Position numbers and translations under genes: made by a program
Notes under the pieces: model-generated
The model's database searches: none
Told to the model about the DNA's origin: nothing
What the model saw: only the letters and a program-made list of their open reading frames with translations
Shown here: piece by piece, positions 7,023-64,000 of the stretch
Layout: each line of letters starts with the position of its first letter
Numbering within the stretch: the first letter of the stretch is position 1
From: Arthrobacter subterraneus
GTDB taxonomy: Bacteria; Actinomycetota; Actinomycetes; Actinomycetales; Micrococcaceae
DNA length: 64,000 nucleotides
Assembly (NCBI RefSeq): GCF_900099735.1
Contig: NZ_FNDT01000005.1
Location: 62,001-126,000 of the forward strand
Reading direction: 5' to 3'

Positions 7023-7757
7023 TCAGGCGCGGGCGTACCGCCGCACAAAGCCGGCGAGGATGTGCGGCGGCCAGGTCACGGCCGAATCCCGTGCCCGCTC
7101 GATGACGCTCTCGGCCTGGTCCGGCGGGAAGTACCCGGCATGACGGTAGATGTGGATGCGCTGGATGAGCCCTTCGACGTCGAGCTCGGGATGGAACTGC
7201 GTAGCGTACAGATTCTGCTTCACCCTGAACATCTGCACCGGACACGAGGCTGACGACGCCAGCAGCACCGCGCCCGCCGGCAGCGTGGAGCACGCCTCCT
7301 TGTGGCCGACAAAGGCGTCGAAGCGCAGCGGGAGGCCTGCCAGCAGCGGGTCTGCCGCGCCGTCGTCGTTCACTGTGATTTCCACCGGTCCGATCGGCTC
7401 GGCAAAGGTCCGGTCGATCACCGCGCCCTGGTGCCGACCCAGCGTACCGACGCCGTAGCAGGCGCCCAGGAAGGGAAAGTCTGCGGCAACGACGCGGTCG
7501 AGCAGCTGACGGAGCTCGCGCTCGACGCGATGCTGCGTGGGTGACTTGGTGACTTCCGCATCCGACGAGTTGAACGGGCTCCCGCCGAGGAAGATCCCCG
7601 AGTAGTCCTCTAGCCGGAGCTGGGGCAGCGGTTCCTGCTCCACCCTGATGCGGTGAAGGTCCGACGGCGCCAGCCCGGTAAAGCGGAGGAAGCTGCGGTA
7701 TTCGCCCTCGGCCGCTGCGTCCTCGGCCCGGGTGCCCAACAGCAGGAACGGAAGCAT
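7023..7757 (-). CDS. class I glutamine amidotransferase
   Basis: A 244-residue stand-alone amidotransferase that releases ammonia from glutamine for an unknown acceptor. The nucleophile elbow is PFLGACYGVGTL near residue 99. The His/Glu pair is in QFHPELD near residue 188. The N-terminal region has GIFLGGSPFNSSD, typical of GMP-synthase-like glutaminase paralogs. It is monocistronic: palindrome A follows its stop and a divergent membrane-protein gene lies upstream. A link to gamma-glutamyl or purine metabolism cannot be decided from sequence. Confidence 0.85.
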   Translation of the reverse strand: MLPFLLLGTRAEDAAAEGEYRSFLRFTGLAPSDLHRIRVEQEPLPQLRLEDYSGIFLGGSPFNSSDAEVTKSPTQHRVERELRQLLDRVVAADFPFLGACYGVGTLGRHQGAVIDRTFAEPIGPVEITVNDDGAADPLLAGLPLRFDAFVGHKEACSTLPAGAVLLASSASCPVQMFRVKQNLYATQFHPELDVEGLIQRIHIYRHAGYFPPDQAESVIERARDSAVTWPPHILAGFVRRYARA

Positions 7758-7878
7758 TCATTGATCGTACTGCCGGCACCTATTTCCTCTGATCACTCGC
7801 ATATTGCTAAGCAGGCTGATAAACCTTTAAGGGAGCCGCAGTGAAACTGCGGCATCGTCAATGTCTAAGGAGAGCACC

Positions 7879-8418
7879 ATGTCAGGAAACTCGTTTGTAC
7901 GGTCCCTGCACGATCTCAGCGCAGCCGCGTGGTTCGGCGGATCCCTCATGGGCGCCGTCGGCCTGAACGGCGCGGCCGCCGAGGCCAAGGACCCCGCGGA
8001 GCGCACACGCCTGTCCACAGCTGGCTGGGCGCGCTGGACGCCGGTGCAGATTGCGGCGTTCGGTGCCCATGCAGTGGGCGGCATCGGCCTGATCGCCGCC
8101 AACAAGGGCCGCTTGGCCGGACAGCCGGGCGCCATGGCCAACACTGTGGTGAAGTCCGCTATCACCGTCGTCGGCATGGCAGCGTCCCTCTACTCCGGCA
8201 TTCTCGGCAAGAAGGTCGGCGAGCTGAGCCGGCACGGCGGGGAGGGCGCAACGGAGCCCAAGCCGGGCGCGCCGGAGGAACTCGCCAAGGCACAGCAGCA
8301 GCTGAAGATTCTTCAGTGGGCACTGCCCGCCCTCAGCGGAGCGGTCATTGTGCTCGGCGCCCAGCAGGGTGAGCAGCAGCGGCCAAAGAACGTACTCAGC
8401 GGCCTCTTCGACCGCTAG
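7879..8418 (+). CDS. conserved hypothetical membrane protein
   Basis: A 179-residue protein with no recognised family. Hydrophobic stretches lie near residues 14-35 (LSAAAWFGGSLMGAVGL), 58-76 (VQIAAFGAHAVGGIGLIAA), 95-115 (VVKSAITVVGMAASLYSGIL) and 150-168. A charged Gly/Pro/Glu loop separates the third and fourth. The ATG at 7879 has AAGGAG nine bases upstream; an earlier ATG at 7861 has no ribosome site. It looks like the small DUF-type membrane proteins common in actinobacteria. Confidence 0.7.
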   Translation: MSGNSFVRSLHDLSAAAWFGGSLMGAVGLNGAAAEAKDPAERTRLSTAGWARWTPVQIAAFGAHAVGGIGLIAANKGRLAGQPGAMANTVVKSAITVVGMAASLYSGILGKKVGELSRHGGEGATEPKPGAPEELAKAQQQLKILQWALPALSGAVIVLGAQQGEQQRPKNVLSGLFDR

Positions 8419-8421
8419 GAC

Positions 8422-8465
8422 CCGCAGCCCGGCCCGTCGTTTTCCCGAACGGCGGGCCTCTGCGG
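8422..8465 (+). terminator. terminator-like hairpin
   Basis: Nested arms CCGCAG/CTGCGG and GGCCCGTCGTT/AACGGCGGGCC (one mismatch) enclose a short loop. It starts four bases after the TAG of the preceding membrane-protein gene. Confidence 0.6.
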
Positions 8466-8495
8466 TTAAGCCCCTTTACAGAACACCAACCGATG

Positions 8496-8560
8496 GGAAC
8501 TTTCGGGCAGCTATGGCGGGTTCCGACGTCGTCAAGCCGCCATGGCTGCCCGAAAGTTCC
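8496..8560. repeat. long stem-loop with 24-bp arms
   Basis: Arms 8496-8519 and 8537-8560 pair with one mismatch (core AACTTTCGGGCAGC). The loop contains GACGTC. It sits between the terminator above and the SDR gene. The adjacent sequence has an imperfect direct repeat, CCGAACACCACGA then CCGGACACCACGA. Confidence 0.7.
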
Positions 8561-8609
8561 GAACACCACGATCAGTTCCGGACACCACGAGCCAACACAG
8601 GAGTAGATG

Positions 8610-9449
8610 ATGGGCCAGCCAGCGCAGCAGCAGGACGTACCCGGCGTTCAGTCGGAGATGGATCCCACACCCGATTGTGGGGAGAAGAGCTACCGCGGAA
8701 GCGGGAAACTGACCGGCAAGGCGGCGGTCATCACGGGCGGCGACAGCGGGATCGGCCGTGCCGTGGCGATCGCCTTTGCGCGCGAGGGCGCGGATGTCCT
8801 CATCTCCTACCTCAGCGAGGACAATGACGCCGAGGAAACCGCCCGCCACATCGAGGAAGCCGGCCGGCGGGCCGTCACCGTGCGCGGCGACCTGTCGGAC
8901 TCGCAGCATTGCCGGGACATCATCGAGCTGGCAGTGCAGGAGTTCGGCAAGGTGGACGTCCTTGTAAGCAACGCCGCCTACCAGATGAGCCACGATTCCC
9001 TCGATGAGATCAGCGAAGAAGAGTGGGAGTACACGTTCAAGGTGAACGTGTCGGCGATGTTCCACCTGGTCAAGGCCGCACTGCCGCACATGGCTCCGGG
9101 CTCCTCCATCATCGGCAGCTCATCGGTGAACTCGGACATGCCGAGCCCCGCCCTGGCGCCCTATGCTGCGACCAAGGCTGCCATCGCCAACTTCTCGGCC
9201 AGCCTCGCGCAGATGCTCGGAGAGAAGGGAATCCGCGTCAACAGCGTTGCACCCGGGCCGATCTGGACGCCGTTGATTCCCGCCACCATGCCGCCGGAGA
9301 AGGTGGAACAGTTCGGCGACGACACTCCCCTGGGCCGCGCCGGCCAGCCCGCGGAACTCGCCCCCGCCTACGTGCTGCTGGCGTCCGACGACGGCAGCTA
9401 CATGTCCGGAGCGCGCATCGCCGTGACCGGCGGCCGGCCAATCCTCTGA
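8610..9449 (+). CDS. SDR family oxidoreductase
   Basis: A 279-residue NAD(P)-dependent short-chain dehydrogenase of the longer YghA/YdaD-like subgroup, with an N-terminal tail before the Rossmann fold. The cofactor motif is ITGGDSGIGRAVAIAFA; VSNAAYQMS is the NNAG-like motif. The catalytic Ser is in IIGSSSVNSD, and the Tyr/Lys pair in YAATKAAI. The ATG at 8610 lies six bases after GGAG; the ATG at 8607 is also possible. General stress or sugar/aldehyde reduction is a family-level guess. Confidence 0.88.
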   Translation: MGQPAQQQDVPGVQSEMDPTPDCGEKSYRGSGKLTGKAAVITGGDSGIGRAVAIAFAREGADVLISYLSEDNDAEETARHIEEAGRRAVTVRGDLSDSQHCRDIIELAVQEFGKVDVLVSNAAYQMSHDSLDEISEEEWEYTFKVNVSAMFHLVKAALPHMAPGSSIIGSSSVNSDMPSPALAPYAATKAAIANFSASLAQMLGEKGIRVNSVAPGPIWTPLIPATMPPEKVEQFGDDTPLGRAGQPAELAPAYVLLASDDGSYMSGARIAVTGGRPIL

Positions 9450-58329: not shown

Positions 58330-59196
58330 CTAGTGCCTCTCTACCCCGAGCACGACGCCGGCCGCATCGGTCGCACGGTCCGGAACCGTGGTCGGGGACT
58401 CCAGATGCACCGCTCCGGAGGGCAGGATCCCGGCACCCCCGAAGCGTTCCATCACCCGCCACTGCGCGGTCACGTCTTCCCCTGCATGGTTCGGTGGAAG
58501 GCGGTCCCAGAAGTCGAACCCGCCGCACTCCACCAGAGCCGCCCGGTTGAACAGGACGCACCCTCCCACCCAGGCCACCTTGTACAGCCGCCAGTCCCCG
58601 GGCGCGAGGTCCAGTTCCGCCGCGGTGTGCGTCAGGTTGGCGGCGTTATGCAGCGGCCACCTCTCGAAGGACGGGCGGTCGGGGCGCACCTGCTCGGGAT
58701 GCACTCCGTGTTCCCAGAACTCAAGGCTGTGGCGTTCATGCTCACGACGGTCGTCAAGGTAGGACAGTCCCTGCACCGCCGCACCCACAAGACCGCATCC
58801 CGCGTCCCTCAGCGCTGCATGCATACGCGCAATCATCCCCGGCTCGAGCCAGACGTCGTTGTCCAGGAACAGCACTTCGGGTGCGCTTGACCGTTCCAGC
58901 AGGAATTGCCGCTGCTGCGCCACTCCCCGCCGAGGCAGGTTGCGCTCCAGAGTGACGGCGCGTCCCTGCACACGGAGAACGCGGATCATCGCCGCCACCG
59001 CCGGCTCGTCCCACACCGGTTCAGCGTCACTCTGGTCGCTCAGGATCACCGCGAAGTCCGGACCATCCTGGGCAGCGAGCCCGGAGAGAGTGACCGCCAG
59101 CTCGGCTGCACGGTTATACGAGGGAACGAGCACCTCCAGCGACGGCTCCCCAGCGGGAGCATTCCGCCCCCACTCCCCTGACCACCGGCGGCTCAT
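58330..59196 (-). CDS. glycosyltransferase family 2
   Basis: A 288-residue GT-A fold enzyme. SLEVLVPSYNRAAELAVTLS binds the nucleotide-sugar, and EVLFLDNDVWLEPG contains the DxD-type metal site. VAWVGGCVLFNRAALVECGG and the final NHAGEDVTAQWRV (ED acid) fit. The ATG at 59196 overlaps the heptose gene stop by four bases (ATGA). Position suggests it adds a sugar derived from the heptose nucleotide to a wall glycan; the acceptor is unknown. Confidence 0.88.
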   Translation of the reverse strand: MSRRWSGEWGRNAPAGEPSLEVLVPSYNRAAELAVTLSGLAAQDGPDFAVILSDQSDAEPVWDEPAVAAMIRVLRVQGRAVTLERNLPRRGVAQQRQFLLERSSAPEVLFLDNDVWLEPGMIARMHAALRDAGCGLVGAAVQGLSYLDDRREHERHSLEFWEHGVHPEQVRPDRPSFERWPLHNAANLTHTAAELDLAPGDWRLYKVAWVGGCVLFNRAALVECGGFDFWDRLPPNHAGEDVTAQWRVMERFGGAGILPSGAVHLESPTTVPDRATDAAGVVLGVERH

Positions 59197-60695
59197 GGCG
59201 CCGAGGTGGGGGTAGCCGGAGCGGTCCGGATCTTCTCGACCACAGCCGTCGTCGACCGCTCCGGAACATAATCGAGGATCCGCACCACCCCGCCGCACCG
59301 CTCCACCACCGGTGCCTCCTCCAGCATCTGCGACGAATAGTCCCCGCCCTTCGCATAGACGTCCGGCCGCAGCGCCTCGATCAGCGGCACGGGAGTGTCA
59401 GTGTCGAACGCGGTCACATAATCCACACAGCTGAGAGCAGCAATGACGCCGGCGCGGTCGGCCAGCGTGTTGATGGGCCGGTCCGGCCCCTTCAGGCGCC
59501 GTACGGAATCATCACCGTTCAACGCCACGACGAGCACGTCACCCAGTTGCTTTGCCTGGGTCAGATAGCGGGTGTGGCCGCGATGCAGCACATCAAAGCA
59601 GCCATTCGTCAGCACGATTCCGCGGCCCTGCTCCCGTTCAGCAGCGACACGCGCCAGCAGCTCATCGAGCGGGAGGACTGCGGAGGAAAGTCCCCCGAGA
59701 TACTGGACCAGATCGCTCGTGGAACACACCGAGGTCCCGGGCCTGCCGACCACCACGTCAGCCGCGGCCTGCGCCAGATCCAGCGCCGCCGTCATCGGCA
59801 TGCCCGCCGCCCGCGCCGCCGTCAGGCAGGCCACAAAGGTATCCCCCGCACCCGATGCCTGCTTCTCCGACGCCGGCCGCGCCCACGTCCGGTGCGCCTG
59901 CCCCTCCGGTGCCAGCAGCACGGTGCCGTCCCGGTCCAGGGTCACGACGACGGCGCCCGCCTGCGTCGCCGCGAAAAGCTCCTCCCGCCGCTCCGTCACC
60001 AGCGCGGCACGGTCGTCCGCCGCTGCCGTCGGGAGACTGACGCCGAGGAGCCGTGCAGCCTCCTGGGCGTTCGGCGTGACAATGGCCGGCGCCAGCTCAG
60101 ACCAGGGACAGGGATCGTGCGCATCGACAACCGTCAACGCGCCGCCGGAGTGCTCCCGCACAGCCTCCCGCACGGCCGGCCCCAGGGCACCGGAACCGTA
60201 ATCGCAGACGACGACGGCGGCGCTGCCGGACAGCGCGGCAGGAACCGCTGCTGCCATGGCGGCGACCGCCCCCGCCGGCGGCTCGCCGTCCTGGTCATCC
60301 AGGCGCAGCATCACCTGGTCCCCGCCGATGATCCGGTTCTTGGTGGTCGTCCGGACCTCCGCTGCAGTGACGAGCCCGGAAGTGTCCACCCCGGCGTCGT
60401 CGAGCAGTATGCGAAGCCGGGCACCGGCGTCGTCGGTTCCGATCAGGCCCACAAGCCGCACCCGCGCGCCGAGGGCAGCAAGGTTCATGGCGGTGTTCGC
60501 CGCGCCGCCCGGCGCATACTCGCGGCGCTTCAGATCCACCACTGGCGCGGGAGCCTCACGGCAGAACCGTTCAATGCTGCCGCTCCACCAGCCGTCCAGC
60601 ATCACGTCGCCCACGACGGTGACCACGGGCGCCACTCGGGCGAGCTCGGCCGGCACCCATTCCGTGAGGCCGCGGGCTTCAGACAATGCCGTCAT
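59193..60695 (-). CDS. hldE: bifunctional heptose-7-phosphate kinase / heptose-1-phosphate nucleotidyltransferase
   Basis: A 500-residue two-domain enzyme. The N-terminal PfkB kinase has TVVGDVMLDGWWSGS and the EKQASGAGDTFVACLTAA active site. The C-terminal domain (~365-500) has GIVLTNGCFDVLHRGHTRYL, with the HxGH motif, and MLEEAPVVERCGGVV. Together they make the ADP- or GDP-activated D-glycero-manno-heptose used in surface glycans. The ATG at 60695 overlapped the original end of the upstream gene. Owing to one extra base there, the frame is now continuous with the aldehyde dehydrogenase. Confidence 0.88.
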   Translation of the reverse strand: MTALSEARGLTEWVPAELARVAPVVTVVGDVMLDGWWSGSIERFCREAPAPVVDLKRREYAPGGAANTAMNLAALGARVRLVGLIGTDDAGARLRILLDDAGVDTSGLVTAAEVRTTTKNRIIGGDQVMLRLDDQDGEPPAGAVAAMAAAVPAALSGSAAVVVCDYGSGALGPAVREAVREHSGGALTVVDAHDPCPWSELAPAIVTPNAQEAARLLGVSLPTAAADDRAALVTERREELFAATQAGAVVVTLDRDGTVLLAPEGQAHRTWARPASEKQASGAGDTFVACLTAARAAGMPMTAALDLAQAAADVVVGRPGTSVCSTSDLVQYLGGLSSAVLPLDELLARVAAEREQGRGIVLTNGCFDVLHRGHTRYLTQAKQLGDVLVVALNGDDSVRRLKGPDRPINTLADRAGVIAALSCVDYVTAFDTDTPVPLIEALRPDVYAKGGDYSSQMLEEAPVVERCGGVVRILDYVPERSTTAVVEKIRTAPATPTSAP

Positions 60696-62111
60696 GGCCG
60701 TCCCCCCTTTCCTGGCGCCTCGATGTGCACCACCTTGACGGTGCAGAACTCGTCCAGCAGTTCCGGCCCGTACCCGAAGCCGTCCCCGGCTTTCCCTCCG
60801 CGGCTGGGCCGAACCCCCCGGAGCGCCGCCGAAGACGGCGTTGACCTTCACCGTGCCCACCTTCAACGCCGCGACAGCCTTCTGCGCATTGCCGATGGAG
60901 CCGGTCAGGATATTCGCCGCGAGCCCGTACCTGCCGGAAGCAGCCAGTTCCAGTCCCTCGTCGAAGCTGCCGACACGTTGAACCGGTGCCACCGGACCGA
61001 AGGACTCCTGGCTCATGATGTCCATCTGGTCCGAGCAGTTCAGCAGGACGGTGGCGGGGTAGTGCGCGCCGGGTCCATCCGGGATGGCGCCACCCTCCAC
61101 TGCCTCGGCTCCCCTGTTGAGCGCGTCCCGGACCTGGCCGTGCACAGTCTCACGCAACCGCCGGTCGACGAGCGGGGCAAAAATTCCCGACTCGTTGCGC
61201 TTCCGTGCCTCGCCGGCCAGCGCTCTGCAGAAGTCATCAGCGATGGCCTCGTGAACGTAAATGCGCTCGACGGCCGTGCAGATCTGGCCGCTGTTACTGA
61301 ACGCACCGATGGCAGCCTGCTCCGCTGCCCAGACAGGATCGACGTCGGAGTCCACGAGCAGCGGATCGTTCCCGCCGTTCTCCCGGATCACGTGCGCCCC
61401 GGTCAGCACGGCGGCACGGGCTATGCGGGCACCGGCAGCACTCGACCCGACGTGCGCAAAGACGTCGACCGCGCCCTCCGTCAGAAGCATCCCTCCGACA
61501 TCGGCGCCTCCCGTGAGTGTGGTCAGAACACCCGCAGGGAAACAGGGCGACAGAATATCGCCGAGCAGCCTGCCAAGGTGCGGGCAACGTTCACTGGGTT
61601 TATGGATAACCGTGTTGCCGGTGACCAGGGCGGCACCGAGCAGCCCGGAGGCAACCGCAACCGGATCGTTCCAGGGGGTGAGCAGCACGGCCACGCCGCG
61701 GGGCTCCGACAGCGTGTAGTCGGAGGCAAGGACGGAGCCCCGGAGGCTGTGGCCGCGGTGGAGTGGGCCTACTTCCGCGTACTGCTCAAGGGTTGCCGCT
61801 CCGGTTTCGATGCCAGCCAGGGCCTCCTCCCGCGGCCGCCCGGTTTCCCTGCTGTTCAGCTCCGCAAGGTGGTCCGCATCTGCCCGGAGTGCTCCGGCAG
61901 CCGCTTTGACCATCTGCGCACGTTCGGCCGGCGCCAGTGCCGCCCACTCGGGCTGCACTGACTGCGCCAGCCGGACAGCAAGGGCGACCTGCTCCCGTCC
62001 GGCGCGCTCCACCGTTCCCACCTCGCTCCCGTCACGGGGATCCACGATGGTGATGGACGATCCTTGTTCAGCAGCACTTCCGCGGGTCATTGTCTCGGGC
62101 TCGCTCGTCAT
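60692..62111 (-). pseudogene. aldehyde dehydrogenase family gene with 3' frameshift
   Basis: A ~470-residue enzyme oxidising an aldehyde with NAD(P). The catalytic Glu is in HVIRENGGNDPLLVDSDV, and the Cys in AFSNSGQICTAVERIYVHE. The frame changes near 60800, after VNAVFGGAPGGSAQP. The expected C-terminus (GFGYGPELLDEF, CTVKVVHIEAP) is found one base out of frame and ends at TGA 60692-60694. One extra base is the simplest explanation. Most catalytic sequence is intact, so a fused product might still be active. ATG 62111 has AAGGAG upstream. Confidence 0.75.
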
Positions 62112-62232
62112 TGCGCTCCTTGTCTGGCAGCGATTGCTTCGTGCCAGAGGAGTACCCACGGGGCGCCGATTTACACACCGATCCAGGGTGAATTACGTCT
62201 GGGGAGCCGGTTCCGGCCGAGGGCTCTTATTG

Positions 62233-63273
62233 TTAGCCGACGCCCTGGTCAGACGCATCGGCAAGGGCAGTACCGAACCGGTCGAGCGCCTGCTCTCCCA
62301 CGATGTCTCCGGGCAGCAAGGGAACCTGCAGCAGCGGGATACCGGGCAGGGACTGGCGCAGGGTCGTCAGGTGGGCATCCTCAAGTGCGCGCCGGTCCGC
62401 CAGGAGGCGTCCGGCGTCGGAGGGTGACCGTTTGTTGACCACCAGTGCTCCCACCTGGACTCCTGCACCGGCCAATTGCCGGTGCAATTCCACGGTCTCA
62501 AGCACCGGCAGCCTTTCGGCGGCGAGGACGATGACGAAGGCGCAGCTCTGCTCGTCGACGAGGACCGTGCGCAGCGATTCAAACCGCTCACGCCGGCGCA
62601 GGAGAATCCGGCGAATCTGCGCATCGCGCTCCTCCGCCGGTTCGGGTAATCGCTGGGTGCCCACGACGGCCTCTGCGGCATCTCGGTCCTCCAGCCCACG
62701 CAAAGCGGCCCCAAACCGCTCGGACCGGCCGCGACGCCGCAGCAACCCCTCAGTCCAGGCAGACATGATTTCGGGCAGCGCCATCAGGCGTGCGGTATGT
62801 CCCGACGGTGCGGTGTCAAAGACCACGAGGTCATACTCACGCAGTCCAAGATCCACCAGCTCTGCGATGCGCTCCAGAACGGCTGACTCATGCGCTCCCG
62901 GGGAGTCCCGGGCGAGCTGCATGTGCTTGTCGACCTCGCCGGCGAGGTGCTCGGGCATGAGCCTGCGGATGGTGCCCCCCACTGCTGCGAGATGCGCCTC
63001 AGTAGTGGCTACCGGGTCCACTTCAATCCCGTCGAGGGCCCCGGGTTCACCCGAACCACTGCGGAGCCCCCGCGCGAGCGGAGTGATCCTGTCCCCCACC
63101 GTGCGTTCCCACAGGTGCCCGAGATTGTGAGCCGGGTCCGTGGAGACAACGAGCACCCGCCGCCCCGCGCGGGCCTGCGCGAGCGCGGTGGCGGAGGCAA
63201 CCGCTGTCTTGCCCACGCCGCCCTTCCCGCCCACAAAGACCACCCGCCGGGCCCCGGCCAGCTCTAGCAGCAC
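62233..63273 (-). CDS. ArsA-type P-loop ATPase
   Basis: A 346-residue ATPase of the ArsA/Get3 class. The deviant Walker A is [19 protein letters not shown], switch I is [14 protein letters not shown] and switch [22 protein letters not shown]. The lack of the ArsA metal-binding Cys cluster and the single ATPase unit suggest it is not an arsenite pump. The GTG at 63273 lies inside the end of the cory-CC-star gene, overlapping ten bases. The client is unknown; membrane insertion or CstA maturation are possible. Confidence 0.85.
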
Positions 63274-63548
63274 GAGATGTGGTCAAGTGGAGAACGGTCC
63301 ATACCCATCCGGCGGTGCCAGTCGTGAAACCTGTCGTACACCACCGGCAGCAACTCCACCGTGTAATAGCTTGCGGGGTTCGGCACGCCCAGCGCCTCCG
63401 AGAGGACCAGCATCATGAAAAGATCCTCCTCATCCCGCTGCGCGCGGGCGAACGTCCGCCGGTAGGGCGCCACATAGAACTCGTGCAGCCCCGCACCTAC
63501 CTGCTCCCGTACGGCATGCAGGCGGTGCAGGAGCGTGCTCGTGGACAC
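63264..63548 (-). CDS. cory-CC-star protein
   Basis: A 94-residue protein ending SPLDHISCC, the double Cys at the very C-terminus that names this family, always next to an ArsA-type ATPase gene. [20 protein letters not shown] and [19 protein letters not shown] are core sequence. GTG 63548 begins two bases after the CstA stop. The role is not known; the terminal CC may bind a metal or serve as a recognition tag. Confidence 0.82.
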
Positions 63549-63550
63549 CT

Positions 63551-64000
63551 TTAGGAGCGCGTCCGGGCGCCGGCTCGATCGCGCTCGTCATCCTCGAGCT
63601 CCGGTGGGTTCTTCTTGGCCTGCGACATGGCGATTGCCGATTCGAAGATGACCCACACGGCAGCAACAAGGATGATCACGTCAAGCCCAAGCAGCAGCCA
63701 GTTCCCGGCAGCGTAGAACTGTCCCATCTGAACAATGAGCGCGTAGACAGACATCACCAGCAGGAACAGGAGCGGCACCAGCACGGGGGTCACCGGACGA
63801 CCCTTACGCAGCAGGATCACGGCGATCATCGATAGCGTCAGCCCTGCAAGCAGCTGGTTGGTAGTACCGAAGAGCGGCCAGATCAGCATGCCGCCCGCAC
63901 CGTCCGCGCCGGCTCCGAACGTCAGGCCCATAGCGATGGCCAACACAATCAGCGTTGCTACGAGTTTGTTGAGGTTGACACCGATGATGCTCGCGGCTTC
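63551..64000 (-). CDS. cstA: carbon starvation protein A, C-terminal part (5' end outside window)
   Basis: The frame runs open to the window end, so the start is missing. The visible C-terminal 149 residues show GMLIWPLFGTTNQLLAGLTL, a family hallmark, then membrane helices ending MSQAKKNPPELEDDERDRAG. CstA takes up peptides or pyruvate during starvation. Usually a small YbdD-type gene follows it; here the cory-CC-star gene does. Confidence 0.87.
   Translation of the reverse strand, partial: EAASIIGVNLNKLVATLIVLAIAMGLTFGAGADGAGGMLIWPLFGTTNQLLAGLTLSMIAVILLRKGRPVTPVLVPLLFLLVMSVYALIVQMGQFYAAGNWLLLGLDVIILVAAVWVIFESAIAMSQAKKNPPELEDDERDRAGARTRS

Follow-up and report, generated by a model that had tools for sequence, protein, structure and literature searches.

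The main finding of this analysis is that a small protein ending in Cys-Cys, cory-CC-star (hereafter CC-star), and a single-domain ATPase of the ArsA/Get3 type are encoded by a gene pair that is linked to a short subfamily of the carbon-starvation transporter CstA, in one operon in many genomes and, it seems, in trans in others; the linkage of the three genes is not due to chance. The operon that we started from lies at the edge of the window, by which we mean the whole 64,000-nucleotide stretch of Arthrobacter subterraneus DNA that was analysed (contig NZ_FNDT01000005.1, positions 62,001 to 126,000), and its three genes are on the minus strand: the 3' end of cstA (63551..64000, 149 of 567 aa; PF02554), the CC-star gene (63264..63548, 94 aa, GTG start; NF041419) and the ATPase gene (62233..63273, 346 aa, GTG start; TIGR00345). 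The full cstA reaches beyond the window (7552-9255 of the contig locus L004), and its product has two PF02554 matches, of 376.7 bits at positions 1-352 and of 73.7 bits at 405-560. The tight packing that an earlier note had read from the sequence is real: 2 bases separate cstA, which ends at 63551, from the CC-star start at 63548, and the CC-star and ATPase genes overlap by 10 bases (63264..63273, minus strand), so that the codons for Cys-Cys-stop double as the ATPase start. The 3' end of the CC-star gene reads SCC-TAG, and the protein ends in ...SPLDHISCC.

The surroundings of the operon were compared across 84 loci, over at most ~6 kb on each side and, for the window operon, to the ends of the contig locus. 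A thioredoxin-reductase-like gene (L004 9300-10238, minus strand) precedes the window cstA on the same strand, at a distance of 44 bases. Since it is nearly absent from the other loci, where the one further match (E 2e-17) is an annotated AhpF of a Pseudochrobactrum plasmid, we rejected it as a component. Among 46 cstA-bearing loci, the largest recurrent neighbour clusters besides arsA and cstA comprise 11, 7 and 6 loci, and by their coordinates all three run antisense to the operon. By eye, the ORFs around the window operon include no ArsR-like product and no ars gene lies beside it, nor do the product names of three annotated plasmid loci include an ars gene. The window also contains, at 59193-62159 (minus strand), a 988-aa ORF of two parts, one resembling aldehyde dehydrogenases and the other sugar kinases/nucleotidyltransferases; by eye the junction between them seems out of frame, possibly because of a frameshift or a sequencing error.

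The association of the three genes extends far beyond the window. CC-star was found in 5 of 37 relatives of A. subterraneus (two of these among 23 genomes of its own genus, centre excluded), in 28 of 396 Actinomycetota genomes and in 7 of 398 Pseudomonadota genomes, the last two samples each counting their centre, which is a CC-star genome by choice. An ArsA-type ATPase gene adjoins the CC-star gene in 27 of the 28 and in all seven of these genomes, respectively. CstA is present in 27 of the 28 CC-positive Actinomycetota genomes versus 107 of all 396 (Fisher p 7e-16, kinship ignored), and in 7 of 7 CC-positive Pseudomonadota genomes versus 189 of all 398 (p 0.005, kinship ignored); when both sample centres are left out, the values become 2e-15 and 0.01, kinship again being ignored. 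One genome, G276, has a weak CC-star match (E 1.3e-4) with neither CstA in the genome nor ArsA nearby; we regard it as a stray match, yet it was kept in the counts of 28. The earlier note had held that its idea would fall if the CC-star and ATPase genes were found mostly without cstA, and this is not what the survey returned: cstA lies beside the CC-star gene, with at most one small gene in between, in 26 of 27 Actinomycetota and 6 of 7 Pseudomonadota genomes, and in one genome (G144) the CC-star gene is at a contig end and CstA on a different contig. Six plasmid records match as well, and the three that were read (from Pseudochrobactrum, Paracoccus and Cytobacillus) bear the trio, which thus crosses phyla. 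The converse fails, however: some CstA is present in 80 of the 368 Actinomycetota genomes without CC-star, and many short CstA of Pseudomonadota occur in genomes without a CC-star match.

When named genomes were scanned with a profile built from close CC-star proteins, at least 591 stretches were returned, at least 582 of them were confirmed, and the best 80 of these were analysed. Within these best 80, the ATPase gene adjoins the CC-star gene in 80/80 and a start codon lies within the Cys-Cys-stop codons in 70. In this same set of 80, cstA is visible beside the CC-star gene in 43 and not seen there in 37, one of the loci (L134) having 4 bases of upstream sequence, which makes cstA adjacency unreadable there. 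To judge from their titles, the 37 unlinked loci come mostly from gammaproteobacterial assemblies, many of them metagenomic. A PF02554 search of the genomes behind these 37 loci found CstA in 34, of the short type by score in 33; one genome (G455) has the long type only, and three (G436, G437 and G448, of unstated completeness) have no PF02554 match. The pair and short CstA therefore go together without adjacency, and the pair apparently acts for CstA in trans. Taken with the universal adjacency of ATPase and CC-star genes in the best 80 loci and the presence of CstA in CC-star genomes, the survey bears out the functional linkage that had been supposed from the window. A common neighbour that might act as an alternative partner of the unlinked pairs was sought in four of the 37 loci and rejected, since the upstream genes differ, being (named by eye) a Na+ symporter-RatA-RnfH series twice, a TonB receptor and an MFS protein. 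In the two loci with that series (L103 and L135) the symporter is of the NSS type by eye, and in another (L085) the unlinked pair precedes BamE-, Fur-, RecN-, GrpE- and DnaK-like genes, also by eye.

The CC protein of the window belongs to a family that is already curated at NCBI (NF041419, CC_star_Cory; 137 bits versus a cut-off of 80). Its Cys-Cys end is conserved, being found in all of the best 80 of at least 582 named loci and in 7 of 7 Pseudomonadota genomes found via the family model; as one of two retrieval patterns required the first terminal Cys, the constancy in the 80 loci is partly built in. That the two cysteines are kept merely through the overlap with the ATPase start was rejected, as the 10 of 80 loci without such a start still end in Cys-Cys, and in six of those ten the ATPase frame is closed in between. 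An AlphaFold2 model (pLDDT 79.4, pTM 0.38) is helical with a CC-bearing tail of low confidence, and a fold search with this model gave no match (best E 3.6). There is no membrane-like segment (19-residue hydropathy above 1.6 in 0 of 74 sequences) and no match to PF04328, the YbdD/DUF466 family, in a Pfam search. Homology to YbdD was also rejected by profile-profile alignment, which covers just the two terminal cysteines (hhalign probability 1.4%).

The ATPase, in turn, belongs to the same P-loop ATPase superfamily as Get3/TRC40 and mycobacterial BagA and BagB, from which it departs in several respects. Get3 has a CxxC zinc motif; ArsD, which has vicinal cysteines, works with the arsenite-pump ATPase ArsA. 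The window ATPase matches TIGR00345 (GET3_arsA_TRC40) with 187.8 bits versus a cut-off of 135 and PF02374 (ArsA_ATPase) with 175.5 bits over one domain, and the solved structures related to it include Get3. It lacks the duplication of the arsenite pump, as had been noticed from its sequence, scoring 118 bits against TIGR04291 (arsen_driv_ArsA; cut-off 650), and it also falls far below the cut-offs for mycobacterial BagA (56 versus 400 bits) and BagB (49 versus 521 bits). In an alignment of 81 ATPases, the P-loop GGKGGVGKT and the switch motif DPAHNLG are near-invariant, and there is no conserved Cys column (the best are occupied in 17/81 and 12/81 sequences), so the Cys ligands of ArsA for As(III) are absent from this set. 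The single Cys of the window ATPase is not conserved among the 81 sequences, which means that it has no CxxC zinc site of the Get3 kind. The activation of CstA that the earlier note had imagined as metal-dependent is weakened by this lack of conserved cysteines.

The same note had called the system undescribed, and in this it was mistaken. CstA-CstX-ArsA operons were described in silico by Castillo & Saier (2010, PMC2963123), who reported operon association in 26 cases and matching trees, single-domain ArsA homologues of ~330 aa without the ArsA Cys ligands, a CstX of ~90 aa and, in a few organisms, CstX and ArsA each in pairs; Pseudomonas stutzeri A1501 and Brevibacterium linens are among the members of their ArsA cluster 18. 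The window operon has the same layout of cstA, a ~90-aa gene and a single-domain arsA, with no arsR seen by eye, and the trio is present in named loci of Stutzerimonas stutzeri. Judged by species (P. stutzeri), size and operon rather than by CstX sequences, CC-star is very probably CstX. One difference is that CstX is termed a single-TMS protein in PMC2963123, which the hydropathy of CC-star does not support. The portions of that paper considered here are silent on the Cys-Cys end, on DUF466, on unlinked pairs and on the CCG protein described below. It is also the sole match for CstA with CstX among open-licence papers, where neither an experimental paper on the trio nor any match for cory-CC-star was found. 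What the present analysis adds is the unlinked CC-star-ATPase pairs, the CCG family, a predicted CP-Sec form of YbdD and an ATPase without conserved cysteines.

A close known parallel is the CstA-YbdD system of E. coli, which likewise combines CstA with a small protein ending in paired thiols (DUF466, PF04328; KCU-star, NF033934). YbdD has about 58-66 aa, shows no detectable homology to CC-star and goes with a long CstA clade. The genome of A. subterraneus itself encodes another CstA, of the long kind (765 aa), and after it a YbdD of 58 aa (PF04328) whose end is likewise Cys-Cys. It is thus apt to say, as had been proposed from the window, that CC-star takes the place of YbdD, as its counterpart for the short CstA subfamily. 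The same arrangement, with long CstA beside YbdD and short CstA beside the CC-star-ATPase pair, is found in G207; YbdD occurs in 2 of 32 CC-positive genomes, both times beside long CstA, and in the two genomes that have both systems no CC-star-ATPase pair lies beside YbdD. In a quick tree of 87 CstA rows, in which some rows are one gene from two loci and long branches leave the deep joins unsure, the YbdD-linked rows group in a clade of their own (SH-aLRT 100), and a second clade, of 64 rows (SH-aLRT 95), unites those that are CC-linked, CC-unlinked or from CCG-protein genomes. Fourteen of 25 unlinked CstA sequences were placed in the tree, as a single clade beside the linked ones. Outside the 64-row clade are L068, from G071 of the doubled branch treated below, and, as sister, L227, a second CstA of G362 without a partner. 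Two CstA sequences from records titled Mycobacterium sp. PO1 (L078) and Acidobacteria ATN4 (L131) fall among Micrococcaceae and next to Ornithinimicrobium, and may be mislabelled, misbinned or recently transferred. Cys299 and His306 (CGAxSGFH) are present in 156 of 156 CstA rows of every partner class, repeats of one gene included. Cys299 is equally constant in the 38 rows without a linked partner, meaning none in the stretch examined. No CstA structure was found by sequence search. CstA models as an APC/LeuT-type secondary transporter: a model of the L074 orthologue (pLDDT 77.5, pTM 0.79) gave Foldseek matches to AdiC and ApcT with E about 1e-4.

The YbdD side of the parallel led to a prediction of its own. 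Among 32 distinct YbdD genes, repeats of one gene dropped, 16 end in CC, 4 in CPC and 12 in CP-UGA-stop. All 12 of the last kind (L186, L189, L191-L194, L196, L197, L200 and L203-L205) come from one Actinomycetota family (f31), with a second stop codon directly after the UGA; by comparison, UGA is the stop codon of 11 CC-ending YbdD genes, and in none of these is it directly followed by another stop. In all 12 f31 genes the UGA precedes a hairpin whose loop reads GGUC (GGGC in one), and RNAalifold finds 10 pairs in it, 3 of them with changes on both sides. Single-sequence folds of eight of these stretches gave z-scores of -0.2 to -4.4; for L196 the best single fold differs from the shared hairpin, and the L197 stretch began one codon late. 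Nine of the 12 genomes have SelB above its cut-off; the remaining three are 79-82% complete. All five CC-positive f31 genomes that were tried have it too, as does G045; G000, G060, G075 and G314 do not. The CP-UGA ends with their second stops, the hairpin and SelB together lead us to predict that f31 YbdD ends in Cys-Pro-Sec with a SECIS-like hairpin. A terminal Cys-Sec has been reported for the DUF466 protein of Campylobacterales and taken by the authors as a sign of redox activity (PMC4607533), and DUF466 of this type is tabulated as KCU-star (PMC13188914, PMC9312934); the CP-Sec form was not found in the sections of these three papers considered here. The four YbdD sequences tried match NF033934, all below its cut-off.

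A further small protein, of ~135 aa, which we call the CCG protein, lies between cstA and the CC-star gene in 15 of 19 actinobacterial loci (L014-L024, L027-L029 and L032, within L014-L032) and beside cstA in five others (L213-L217). It has a constant DPRN motif and a CCG motif in which the first Cys and the Gly are constant and the second Cys is present in at least 90% of 19 sequences; L029, in which the CCG region seems damaged, was excluded from this alignment (A3). In five Actinomycetota genomes (G219, G272, G344, G422 and G294), the CCG protein gene directly follows a cstA of the same clade and the genome has no CC-star match. Cytobacillus has a shorter relative without the CCG motif between cstA and the CC-star gene. 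The CCG protein was not found in the best 80 of at least 582 named loci. No Pfam, NCBIfam or PDB family accounts for the CCG protein beyond weak thioredoxin-like matches, and the possibility that it is ArsD was rejected, because Pfam, NCBIfam and PDB sequences returned no ArsD and just weak Thioredoxin_3 and ArsE-like matches (E 0.1-0.2). A doubled branch (G071, G074, G215 and G249; L228-L231) departs from the usual layout in another way, its one CstA being accompanied by a pair of CC-like genes. In G074, G215 and G249 these are followed by two complete ATPase genes; in G071 the contig ends inside the first ATPase gene and a second contig has a CC-like gene and two ATPase pieces. The CC-like proteins of this branch do not end in Cys-Cys, so the dithiol is not needed everywhere.

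How might the three proteins work together? We tentatively favour a model in which an ATP-cycled loader of a dithiol adaptor makes CstA competent for transport. The operon would thus encode an APC-fold carbon-starvation transporter of the short type together with its own soluble licensing pair. CC-star would be a helical adaptor with a flexible tail bearing the Cys-Cys dithiol; it would dock on a dimer of the ArsA/Get3-type ATPase, whose ATP cycle would hand the tail to CstA or take it off. CC-star would then replace YbdD for short CstA and serve it as YbdD serves the E. coli transporter, in that without an adaptor there would be no transport; YbdD is required for pyruvate uptake by E. coli CstA (PMC5847655). 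Transport would probably be proton-driven, in short CstA as in E. coli CstA, and ATP would be spent on loading or resetting the adaptor rather than on pumping. What the sequences show is linkage of the genes, joint occurrence in trans, a conserved Cys-Cys, the resemblance to YbdD and an ATPase lacking a conserved Cys; contact between the proteins, dimerisation, the loading step, the coupling of short CstA to protons and the dithiol chemistry are inferred. In favour of this licensing model is the adjacency of CC-star and ATPase genes (80/80 in the best 80 of at least 582 named loci and 7/7 Pseudomonadota genomes), also where cstA is elsewhere, and the doubling of both CC-like and ATPase genes beside one CstA fits a pairing of adaptor and ATPase. 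The split of CstA into two clades by partner, the division of labour in A. subterraneus and G207 and the paired thiols at the ends of both CC-star and YbdD also speak for it. Against it are G455, with long CstA only, the three genomes without a CstA match, the many other short CstA without a CC-star match and the lack of detectable homology between CC-star and YbdD. Its main weakness is the loss of the tail cysteines in the doubled branch, together with the five Actinomycetota genomes in which a close CstA has a CCG protein and no CC-star.

Part of the same evidence can be read in other ways. Castillo & Saier proposed that CstA, like ArsB with ArsA, draws its energy directly from the ATPase, the CC protein serving as coupling subunit, and the 26 cases of operon association with matching trees (PMC2963123) and the tight ATPase-CC-CstA linkage would suit such an arrangement. 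However, transport by E. coli CstA is powered by the proton gradient (PMC7730263), which is why we regard ATP as an unlikely energy source for transport. The APC/LeuT-fold model of CstA, its close relatives in genomes without a CC-star match and an ATPase that, like the single-domain homologues in PMC2963123, lacks the ArsA Cys ligands point the same way, and we consider direct energising unlikely. A redox switch has more in its favour, if still doubtful in our view: the Cys-Cys or Cys-Sec tail could gate uptake by closing, reversibly, a (seleno)disulfide either within itself or to CstA, which the CCG protein would reduce, with the ATPase releasing the tail. Such a switch is consistent with the terminal Sec of Campylobacterales DUF466 (PMC4607533), the predicted CP-Sec of 12 Actinomycetota YbdD, the thioredoxin-like CCG protein beside cstA and the universal Cys299 of CstA. 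Yet Cys299 is as constant where no partner is linked (38/38) and may therefore serve the substrate or the proton; proteins of the doubled branch have lost the CC tail, and other loci do not share the thioredoxin-reductase-like gene next to the window cstA.

The membership of the ATPase in the Get3/TRC40-type family, and Get3 itself among its solved relatives, raise the prospect that it shields CstA or the tail of the CC protein and inserts it into the membrane. Such targeting appears quite improbable, given that the CC protein has no membrane-like segment (0/74), that CstA is polytopic, a kind of membrane protein that normally uses SRP-Sec, and that the window ATPase has one non-conserved Cys and no zinc site of the CxxC type. 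It seems very improbable that CC-star carries a thiol-bound cargo, delivering a soft metal or metalloid to CstA or collecting one from it, much as the vicinal cysteines of ArsD act with ArsA. The paired cysteines of CC-star, YbdD and the CCG protein and the ArsA kinship of the ATPase would agree with such delivery, but conserved cysteines are missing from the ATPase, searches of Pfam, NCBIfam and PDB sequences gave no ArsD match for the CCG family, and no ars gene was seen at the window operon (by eye) or in the three plasmid loci (by product names).

Returning to the licensing model, CstA transporters appear to belong to a wider pattern in which they travel with a paired-cysteine partner. A more speculative extension, to which we would give a rather low probability, is that CstA transporters in general are gated by a (seleno)dithiol partner and that YbdD, CC-star and the CCG protein, which have no detectable relationship, were recruited for one job. 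Their CC, CPC, C-Sec or CP-Sec ends would engage CstA, perhaps at Cys299-His306, via thiol exchange or a shared soft metal, and a dedicated ArsA/Get3-type ATPase would load and reset CC-star in cis or in trans. The paired-Cys theme, with Sec at the equivalent place in some partners, turns the dependence of E. coli CstA on YbdD into a testable question about the terminal dithiol. For a group of single-domain bacterial ArsA/Get3-type ATPases it suggests which function to search for, and it points to a fourth component, the CCG protein, for which there is as yet no family model.
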